Shown one piece after another: positions 15,192-62,890 of a DNA stretch of 64,000 nucleotides. A program made the translations under genes and the position numbers. Source of the stretch: Halorubrum sp. 2020YC2 (GTDB lineage Archaea > Halobacteriota > Halobacteria > Halobacteriales > Haloferacaceae); NCBI RefSeq assembly GCF_018623055.1, contig NZ_CP076019.1, positions 1,240,001-1,304,000 on the forward strand. Reading direction: 5' to 3'. How positions within the stretch are numbered: position 1 is the first letter of the stretch; every line of letters begins with the position of its first letter. Below the pieces are notes generated by a model. It ran no database searches. It saw nothing but the letters and a program-made list of their open reading frames with translations, and was not told where the DNA came from.

Positions 15192-15505
15192 TTATAAATG
15201 GTCGGCGGTGCGGCGGCGCGTGCCGGTGAGCGCCGCACCGCGGCGCGAACCGCACGCGCGAGGGAGTCAGTCGCCGGAGCGAAGCGACGGCGACTGACGA
15301 GGCTGGGGAGGCGTGAGGTGCGGTTGCGGTGCTGTGTGGGGCGGGACTCAAAGGGGCAGCCGGGAGGCGGGCGCAGGCGACGTAAGCACCGCAGGGAGGG
15401 AGCGAGTGAAACGAGCGACCGACCGAGGAGCGCAACGAGCGTGCGCCCGCCTCCCGGCTGGGGCTTTGGAGGTGTCCGCCGTGCTCCGGAACAGCTATTT
15501 ATAAA
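15192..15505 (+). repeat. structured intergenic repeat, copy A
   Basis: A TTATAAAT box (15192-15199) is followed by three nested or consecutive hairpins. H1 has outer arms GCGCGTGC 15216-15223 / GCACGCGC 15252-15259 and inner stem GCGCCG/CGGCGC. H2 is an 11-bp stem, 15266-15276 with 15288-15298. H3 has CAAAG 15349-15353, GGG, then a perfect 19-bp arm 15357-15375 pairing with 15442-15460, GGG and CTTTG 15464-15468. A second box GCTATTTATAAA sits at 15494-15505 and recurs at 15527-15538, overlapping the stop of the next gene. There is no credible ORF. It fills the gap between 15115 and 15531. Confidence 0.85.
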
Positions 15506-15531
15506 CAAGCGCACGGCGCTCCGAGCGCTAT

Positions 15532-32654: not shown

Positions 32655-32704
32655 ATATCAATGTGCGGCGGTGGGATCGGTTGCTCCGTGACTTCGGTCG
32701 TCTG

Positions 32705-33088
32705 TTTATAAGTAATTACGATCGGAGCGGCGGGAAGCGCCTCCAAATCCCCAGTTGCTCGGCGATACGTGGTCGACCGTAGATCGATCGGAAACACCTC
32801 CAAAGCCCCAGCCGCGACGGCTCGCGCGCCTTGCTGCGCGCCTCACTCGGTCGCTACCGCTCCCTCGTTGCGGTGCTTACTGCGGCGTGCTTCGCCCTCG
32901 CGGCTGCCCCTTTGAGTCCCGCCCGACCGCGACCGCACAGCACCTCACACCTCCCCATCCTCGTCGGGCGCGTCCTTCGGGCTCCCACCGGTCGCCCTCG
33001 GCGCGCCCGACTCCCTCGCGCGTGCTGCCTCGCGGCCGCCGTGAGCGGCCGCTCGCAGGCACGCGCCACCGCAGAGTTATTTATAAAT
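32705..33088 (-). repeat. structured intergenic repeat, copy B
   Basis: Same architecture as copy A, on the minus strand, between the convergent 3' ends of engB and the enolase-like gene. The AT box lies at 33078-33088, and a second TTTATAA at 32705-32711. H1 inner stem is GCGGCCGC 33032-33039 / 33045-33052. H2 is a 10-bp stem, 32963-32972 with 33002-33011. H3 closes with CAAAG 32801-32805 / CTTTG 32910-32914, a 3x3 internal loop, and CAGCCGCGA 32809-32817 / TCGCGGCTG 32898-32906. A second partial right-end motif lies at about 32739-32756. It explains the 468-bp gap 32655-33122. Confidence 0.85.
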
Positions 33089-53608: not shown

Positions 53609-53686
53609 TACGCCTCACTCCGACGGCGCGCGACTAAAAGGGTGGCAGTTCGCGCGAGCGAGAAGAGTCGAGACTACCGATGGTAC

Positions 53687-54009
53687 TTATAAATGAATTG
53701 GCAGTGGCGCGTGCCTGCGAGCGCCCCTTGGGCGCGAGGTGCACGCGCGAGGGAGTCGGCCGACCGAAGGGAGGCCGACGAGGCTGGGGAGGTGTGAGGC
53801 GCTGTGCGGAGCGGTGCGGGGTGGGACTCAAAGGGGCAGCCGGGAGGGCGGCGCAGGCGACGTAAGGACCGCAAGGAGGGAGCGTAAGCGACCGACTGAG
53901 GACCGCAGCGAGCGTGCGCCGCCCTCCCGGCTGGGGCTTTGGAGGTGTTCACCGTCGATCTGCGTTCAATCATTTATAAGCGAGCGGCTGGGGCTTTGGA
54001 GGTGTTCAC
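53687..54009 (+). repeat. structured intergenic repeat, copy C
   Basis: It lies between the 5' end of gatE and tRNA-Leu. TTATAAAT is at 53687-53694. H1 outer arms are GCGCGTGC 53707-53714 and GCACGCGC 53741-53748, with inner stem GCGCCC/GGGCGC. H2 stem is GTCGGCC 53755-53761 / GGCCGAC 53773-53779. H3 has CAAAG 53829-53833, GGG, a 19-bp arm 53837-53855 pairing with 53915-53933, GGG and CTTTG 53937-53941. A TTTATAA box is at 53973-53979. A 24-bp copy of the right end (53929-53952) recurs at 53986-54009. The remaining gap to 54123 holds nothing else recognised. Confidence 0.87.
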
Positions 54010-54123
54010 GACCACAGCGTTCCGATCGTACTCGTCACTCGTCACGTAACGTTCGAAAGGAATTGTGCGTGGGTGCTGTCGTAGAGACAACACCGTGCAT
54101 CGTTCGGGGGTGTACCCCTGCGA

Positions 54124-62248: not shown

Positions 62249-62439
62249 TACCCTCCGATCGACGGGTTTCGGGGTTAAGCGTGTCGCACCGATACGTGAG
62301 AGGAGTGAGTGTCCGCAGAAGGGTGAGAGTCGGCGCCACGGGTTCGATCGCTCAACGCCGCGTTTTCCGCCTCGACGACACGAGCTCAGAGTCCTCGGCC
62401 GCTCGGCTGTATAGTGGTGTTATATCTTCTGAATTGCCG

Positions 62440-62890
62440 ACGACACCACCGAAGCCCCAGCCTGGAGGCGGGCGCACGCTCGCCGCGGTCCTCACTCGGT
62501 CGCTCACTCCGTTCGCTTCCTCGTTGCGGTCCTTGCGTCGTCATCAGAACGCGAAGCGTTCTGATTGGCTCACGAGAGCTCCGCTCTCGTGAACGCCTGC
62601 GCCCGCCTCCCGACTGCCCCTTCGAGTCCCACCCGCCCGTAGGAAGACGGTCCTGCTCGCTCACTCCGTTCGCTGCGCGGGCTGCGACTTCCGTGCTCCC
62701 GCTCGCTTCGTCGCCGGCGCGCAGCGCCGGCTGCTGGAGGGACCGAAGGTCCCTCCCTGCTCGCGGGAACGCGACCGCACCGCACCTCACGCCTCCCCAG
62801 CCTCGTCGGCGGCTCCCGACGGTCGCCGCCGACTCCCTCGCGCGCGCCACTCGGCCGCGGTGCGGCCTCGCGGGCACGCGCCGCCGCAAC
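62440..62890 (-). repeat. structured intergenic repeat, copy D (expanded)
   Basis: Copy D lies between elp3 and bax1. H3 is conserved with changes: CGAAG 62450-62454 / CTTCG 62620-62624, a 3x3 loop, and a 19-nt arm 62458-62476 pairing with 62598-62616 except one mismatch and one wobble. H2 is GTCGGCGGC 62805-62813 / GCCGCCGAC 62825-62833, and H1 inner stem is 62853-62858 / 62862-62867. Extra hairpins are inserted at 62543-62565, 62570-62592, 62713-62731 and 62736-62756. The AT boxes are degenerate. With flanks it explains the 705-bp gap 62249-62953, in which no gene is seen. Confidence 0.82.

Follow-up and report, generated by a model that had tools for sequence, protein, structure and literature searches.

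The segment at 53829-53941 of the window (the whole stretch of 64,000 nt that we analysed, part of the 3.06-Mb chromosome, G000, of a Halorubrum-type genome) corresponds to P4, as we name the terminal hairpin of a dispersed element of about 0.3 kb. The original prediction had taken this hairpin for the whole element; in fact it is one domain of a repeat that also has two further hairpins, P1 and P2, and 57-nt tail units. The repeats form a dispersed family of non-coding, intergenic elements whose P4 core is conserved across the class Halobacteria. We tentatively propose, at somewhat less than an even chance, that they represent a class-wide haloarchaeal non-coding RNA family, with up to about 130 or more copies per genome, in which two covarying helices clamp a natural three-tetrad quadruplex and which transposition spread before it was retained for a cellular role in the high-K+ cytoplasm.

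The letters and the coordinates of the hairpin were as predicted: CAAAG, GGG, a 19-bp arm (53837-53855), its complement (ending at 53933), GGG and CTTTG. Read in the sense direction (Table 1), the element starts with CTTATAAATG and, after a few bases, P1 (GCGGTGGCGCGTGCC...GCACGCGC), GAGGGA, P2 with its variable stem and GAGGCTGGGGAGG; then come a short G-rich linker, GGGYGGGAC, T-CRAAG-GGG-(P4 stem, distal rod, P4 stem)-GGG-CTTYG and GAGGTGTTC. The right end extends for about 30 nt after GAGGTGTTC, finishing in CATTTATAAG, and is followed by 1-4 tandem 57-nt units, whose identity to the first unit falls outward (means of 0.64, 0.36 and 0.30). In most Halorubrum copies a TATAA lies 12-15 nt ahead of P1, as seen in the histogram of distances. 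We rejected a promoter reading of the flanking TTATAAAT and considered it as part of the element ends, because a TATA box there would put the start site inside P1 and because a mirror-image copy is found at the right end.

Table 1. Features of the element at 53686-54010 and positions of the other copies in the window.
Feature	Position	Strand	Remarks
Left end CTTATAAATG	53686..53695	+	Imperfect terminal inverted repeat with the right-end CATTTATAAG
P1 hairpin GGCGCGTGC...GCACGCGC, inner hairpin variable	53706..53748	+	Covarying pairs in the 55-copy alignment
P2 hairpin GTCGGCC...GGCCGAC	53755..53779	+	Conserved GAGGGA and GAGGCTGGGGAGG on its flanks
G tracts 1 and 2, GGGG-T-GGG (consensus GGGYGGG)	53818..53825	+	As invariant as the loop
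CAAAG, closing helix, 5' strand	53829..53833	+	
GGG, internal loop, 5' side (G tract 3)	53834..53836	+	
P4 hairpin: freely covarying stem of about 10-19 bp; distal rod with tandem G.A-type 2x2 loops	53837..53933	+	
GGG, internal loop, 3' side (G tract 4)	53934..53936	+	
CTTTG, closing helix, 3' strand	53937..53941	+	
First 57-nt right-end unit GGCTGGGGCTTTGGAGGTGTTC...CATTTATAAGCGAGC	53929..53985	+	
Second tandem right-end unit, partial	53986..54010	+	
Copy A	15211..15512	+	P4 15348-15477
Copy B	32694..33025	-	P4 32792-32915
Copy D, long form: extra P3 domain and nested double hairpins; closing helix CGAAG/CTTCG	62432..62853	-	P4 62441-62625

A covariance model of P4 recovered exactly the four predicted copies in the window as strong sense matches, including 53828-53950 (+), along with weak antisense echoes. 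The motif GGCTGGGGCTTTGGAGG was present 5 times in the window against 0.01 expected. With the same model, and with the weakest fragments removed, we counted 131 copies in the 3.06-Mb chromosome. The element was found in 50 of 52 congeners, with a copy number within the genus ranging from none to at least 69. Matches occurred in 21 of the 28 genera of the family sample (148 genomes), and P4 was present in 135/194 genomes and 51/65 genera of the class sample; plasmid records of Halorussus, Haloarcula, Natrinema and Halobacterium also carry the element, and a search for phage carriage gave no match. The repeat is present in most of the sampled genomes of Halobacteria, unannotated and repeatedly amplified. 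Rfam (release 15) gave no match at the gathering score, with only chance-level matches (E >= 3) on the element, and in the literature that we searched this repeat was not described.

To score the conservation of the GGG triplets we used both the copies found by the covariance model and orthologous loci picked by their flanking gene and not by the motif. Among the copies of the same genome, the triplet was kept in 120/128 cases on the 5' side and in 124/128 on the 3' side, as read with a model that includes the GGGs and hence gives lower scores to copies without them; wholly different, genus-specific stems did not block detection. All 34 matches sampled from seven other genera in the same family had GGG/GGG, and among 54 further matches from other families and more genera it was kept in 52 (5') and 51 (3'). 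At the gene-anchored loci the triplets were kept in nearly all copies still having P4. The exceptions were L227, in which the 3' GGG is AGG, and the decayed L368, in which both are lost, so the earlier statement that GGG/GGG never varies is slightly too strong and near-invariance is what stands.

The compensated A-T to G-C change claimed for the closing helix recurs in the copies of the same genome, where that position was A-T in 104, G-C in 14, G-T in 4 and A-C in 5 (Fisher p = 1.9e-11, a descriptive value only, because the copies are related and not independent). Here the helix was CAAAG/CTTTG in 95 copies and CGAAG/CTTCG in 14, with single-step intermediates in a few. Beyond Halorubrum it is GAAAG/CTTTC or GGAAG/CTTCC, and therefore a second pair of the helix covaries too, which gives four compensated forms: CAAAG/CTTTG, CGAAG/CTTCG, GAAAG/CTTTC and GGAAG/CTTCC. 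The pair immediately inside the loop is C-G in Halorubrum and A-T in three copies of other genera. Since both the outer pairs (C-G/G-C and A-T/G-C) and the inner one change, the loop is bounded on both sides by changing pairs and is itself still GGG/GGG, in agreement with the predicted invariant purine loop between covarying helices, which proved near-invariant class-wide. In a 55-copy alignment, 33 of 54 consensus pairs were changed on both sides. Whole-hairpin exchange or palindrome correction could be behind some of this covariation, given the flipped loops and shared P2 cassettes described below; they cannot account for the invariant mismatched GGGs.

The 9 nt ahead of the closing helix are GGGYGGGAC, and their GGGYGGG, 3-9 nt upstream of the helix and missed by the original prediction, is as invariant as the loop. 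Each of its six G positions is near-fixed (112-116/117 copies of the same genome and 30-34/34 copies of other genera), whereas Y varies, with C in 62 copies and T in 47; GGGYGGGR occurs in 101/117 copies of the same genome and 28/34 of other genera. Both upstream G3 tracts were present in 108/117 copies of the same genome, 31/34 of other genera and 42/54 of the further set. GGGYGGG is kept also in elements that lack P1 and P2 and consist of P4 alone or of an inverted P4 pair, and all four tracts are kept in 9 copies with a shortened P4. Y(-6) showed no convincing covariation with any downstream base, so that tracts 1 and 2 are not simply a helix strand. A single strand hence carries four conserved tracts of at least three G, GGG-Y-GGG-ACTSRAA(G)-GGG-hairpin-GGG, that is, a quadruplex-forming motif. 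The loop had been predicted to be either a protein- or ligand-binding site or a G-rich non-canonical structure. That the loop is conserved and functional is well supported, and of the two proposals the latter is the better fit because the equally invariant upstream GGGYGGG completes four G3 tracts; a co-occurring protein gene finds no support so far, and neither a protein nor a ligand is implied. The arrangement, in which a freely varying Y separates tracts 1 and 2 and a hairpin separates tracts 3 and 4, fits a three-tetrad quadruplex-duplex junction, a reading that the tract facts do not prove, as the plain fold gives a 3x3 loop.

RNA folding placed this 3x3 loop within a long rod, and the 255-nt element had z = -5.4, none of 200 shuffles reaching its stability. 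The folding program returned a quadruplex only for L425, which lacks the hairpin, and none for the intact element; the linkers that it allows in quadruplexes are limited to short lengths. Over all sets, the first 10 pairs of P4 comprised 2485 Watson-Crick, 60 G-U and 12 A-C cells (G-U against A-C, p = 8e-9, for copies that are not independent). This excess argues that the sense strand folds, since a double-stranded palindrome kept by correction would give G-U and A-C in equal numbers. The folding molecule is thus probably the sense strand as RNA, and mutational strand asymmetry or tolerance of G.T in single-stranded DNA could explain part of the excess.

In the mechanism that we propose, the sense strand, most likely as RNA, would fold P4 and so bring the two GGG tracts of the loop next to each other; GGGYGGG from upstream would then dock on these paired tracts to give three G-tetrads. 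The core would be GGGYGGGAC-P4-GGGGCTTTG, with P4 as the loop between tracts 3 and 4, and the resulting quadruplex-duplex junction is expected to be very stable in a molar-K+ cytoplasm. Since RNA quadruplexes tend to have parallel strands, the presence of a helix on each side of tracts 3 and 4 is awkward; Spinach-type fluorogenic aptamers show that a quadruplex flanked by helices is possible. In Haloferax volcanii, G4s have been imaged in both DNA and RNA (PMC12873603).

As regards mobility, one genome (G135, genus g24) contains two inverted P4 pairs with IS6-type ends and 8-bp target duplications. The ends of the pairs are GGTAGTGTTCAGATAAGC / GGCACTGTTCAGATTAGC, against GGTAGTGTTCAGATAAGG / GGTGCTGTTCAGATTAGC for the IS, and that genome also contains complete 698-bp IS copies whose ends are of this type and whose duplications, CGTTCACG and GCGATTTC, are perfect. 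For the pairs, the duplication is 8/8 at L402 (GTGACCGT) and ambiguous at L391 through a G-run. IS6-type ends were seen in g24 only, with an approximate match in g23, whose other pairs are unclear for duplications; Halorubrum copies have the ends CTTATAAATG/CATTTATAAG, and no IS6-type ends, 8-bp duplication or matching IS were seen for them. The element would have spread in the manner of a MITE, non-autonomously and with mobilisation in trans, by an IS6-type transposase in at least one genus, and its copies would then have been kept at fixed loci.

In most of 30 Halorubrum species the element occupies the same place beside the 51725-53608 gene and the tRNA-Leu, and in many it is found beside the 33123-34169 gene; some species lack it, and decayed remnants occur at that locus in the low-copy genomes G026 and G018. 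Identity of P4 was 78% and 75% between orthologs, 79.5% between paralogs of the same genome and 78.7% with copies of other species. We rejected concerted homogenisation, as paralogs of the same genome were no more alike than copies of other species or orthologs. The P2 stem alleles recur exactly at unrelated loci and in other species (23 of 69 copies from other Halorubrum match a P2 of the same genome). Taken together, the shared loci, the orthologous P4s no closer than paralogs and the recurring P2s indicate old sites whose contents turn over under structural constraint. With such turnover at orthologous loci, retention of a site would not in itself demonstrate a function of the individual copy. 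P4 can be deleted, and in eight copies (L050, L064, L087, L092, L099, L205, L212 and L221) its distal part is reverse-complemented between intact outer arms, which we read as a sign of DNA-level inversion at the palindrome.

The best overall explanation, to which we assign a chance close to even without reaching it, combines the RNA-type quadruplex-duplex fold, MITE-like spread and copies retained in the manner of REP/BIME. Its main rival, which we consider unlikely, keeps the same folded RNA and regards GGG/GGG as an ordinary internal loop of three G.G pairs that binds a protein or a ligand, the upstream GGGYGGG being either a strand of an outer helix (GGYGGGAC with GTTCACC) or a second binding site. 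Typical protein sites are indeed invariant purine loops between covarying helices, in the minimum-energy fold GGTGGGAC is paired with GTGTTCACC, leaving a 3x3 loop, and GAGGTGTTC is fairly well kept in other genera. Against this reading, Y(-6) does not covary convincingly with its proposed partner; it pairs with it in 66% of cases against 58% expected, and the downstream GTTC is poorly kept in several genera where GGGYGGG is kept. Nor does a protein gene recur beside the element.

The hairpin could also be a DNA-level feature, that is, a selfish palindromic MITE whose covariation derives from template switching, hairpin correction and cassette exchange, with the GGGGC...GGGGC direct repeats that flank the inner hairpin as either the relic of a target duplication or a site of slippage. 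We consider this improbable, although it accords with the flipped P4 loops, with the identical P2 cassettes at unrelated loci and species, with the exact or near-exact loss of the hairpin between the GGGGC repeats (L425, L393), with the terminal inverted repeats and target duplications of G135, and with the tail units, which copy their own local arm in 55/58 cases. Palindrome correction would have turned GGG/GGG into GGG/CCC, and the strand bias of G-U over A-C would be unexpected. Moreover, the unpaired blocks (GAGGGA, GGCTGGGGAGG, GGGYGGGAC) are invariant and the supposed ends, the stems, vary, opposite to what a target duplication would give. That the tail is translated, or is another coding feature, in the frame AGALEVF..DP.S.IYKRA repeated every 19 codons, is very improbable: the tail units are mostly spaced by multiples of 3 (51, 54, 57) and often have one open frame, but other frames are open as often, variation has no codon-position periodicity (0.87, 0.84 and 0.88 bits for the three phases) and synonymous sites are invariant in the conserved block.

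Considering genes as predicted by a home-made gene model, all the 43 copies analysed for context were intergenic (16 between convergent, 8 between divergent and 19 between tandem genes) and 51/86 flanking gene ends were 3' ends, a weak bias. We rejected a cis-regulatory leader of the riboswitch type, as a same-strand downstream gene was present for only 16/43 copies, with no recurrent gene family. In the search for a co-occurring protein gene, which the original prediction had suggested, no family was found beside more than 3 of 130 element loci. Two plasmid copies (L486 and L487, in Natrinema zhouii and Halobacterium sp. DL1) adjoin homologous, 45% identical genes for a 'DNA-binding protein' with no Pfam match, which we read as a shared plasmid backbone. 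Replication-linked sites were also rejected, the spacing being Poisson (CV 1.04) and the strands balanced. For the preferred fold, the weakest step of the mechanism is the cellular one: retained copies may act like bacterial REP/BIME, as very stable structures between transcription units that would mark or protect transcript ends or offer a protein-binding platform. The function that we infer is that of an intergenic RNA structure resembling REP/BIME.

Among published repeats, the MITE, PATE and SMR classes of Haloquadratum walsbyi (PMC3119063) come closest. Like those MITEs and PATEs, the element is short, transposase-free and multicopy, with hairpins near its ends; other small repeats are inserted into it and loss occurs via repeat-mediated deletion (PMC3119063). 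PATEs have near-terminal palindromes, neither terminal inverted repeats nor target duplications, and are IS605-related (PMC3119063), whereas here inverted ends are present, and the G135 form has IS6-type inverted ends with 8-bp duplications. Unlike PATEs, moreover, the structured core is class-wide with covarying stems.

The element resembles bacterial REP/BIME in being intergenic, dispersed in more than 100 copies, hairpin-forming and often placed between convergent genes; bacterial REPs have RAYT transposases. According to PMC3733652, REPs are palindromes of 20-40 bp with a GTAG/CGTC foot. Neither the length nor the sequence of the element agrees with this: it is about 300 nt long, multi-domain and archaeal, with invariant GGG/GGG and GGGYGGG. 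Quadruplex-duplex junctions are found in fluorogenic RNA aptamers and stem-loop-containing DNA G4s, which are selected or designed sequences. Like these, the predicted structure takes its tetrads from G tracts on both strands of an internal loop between helices; unlike these, it would be natural and conserved throughout a class. The usual argument for a natural quadruplex is a loose count of G-runs. If the reading is true, the evolutionary record itself would fix the topology, through twelve guanines that do not vary, a one-base loop that does and helices that covary on either side, and the element would offer a rare natural quadruplex-duplex junction with more than 100 natural replicates per genome in molar-K+ organisms.

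Some variants of the layout were also observed. At 53929-54010, and in most tails, the outward decay is as if new 57-nt units always arise beside the hairpin; tandem tail units occur in other genera too, with other periods. Long forms (62441-62853 (-), L169, L173, L187 and L202) have an extra domain of about 90 nt (CCCGCGAGCG...GTCTTCCGGCGGT) between P2 and P4. Small double-hairpin inserts (e.g. GTCGCCGGCGCTACGCGCCGGCTGCCAGAGAATCTTCGATTCTCGCTGG) are found within stems in either orientation (62594-62853 (-), L171, L172, L175, L189, L194, L195 and L224) and are possibly a small mobile repeat targeting palindromes, by analogy with the Haloquadratum SMRs. Finally, L417, a decayed copy (G018, locus C), carries GAGGCTGGGGAGGTGT, the conserved block flanking P2, five times in tandem.
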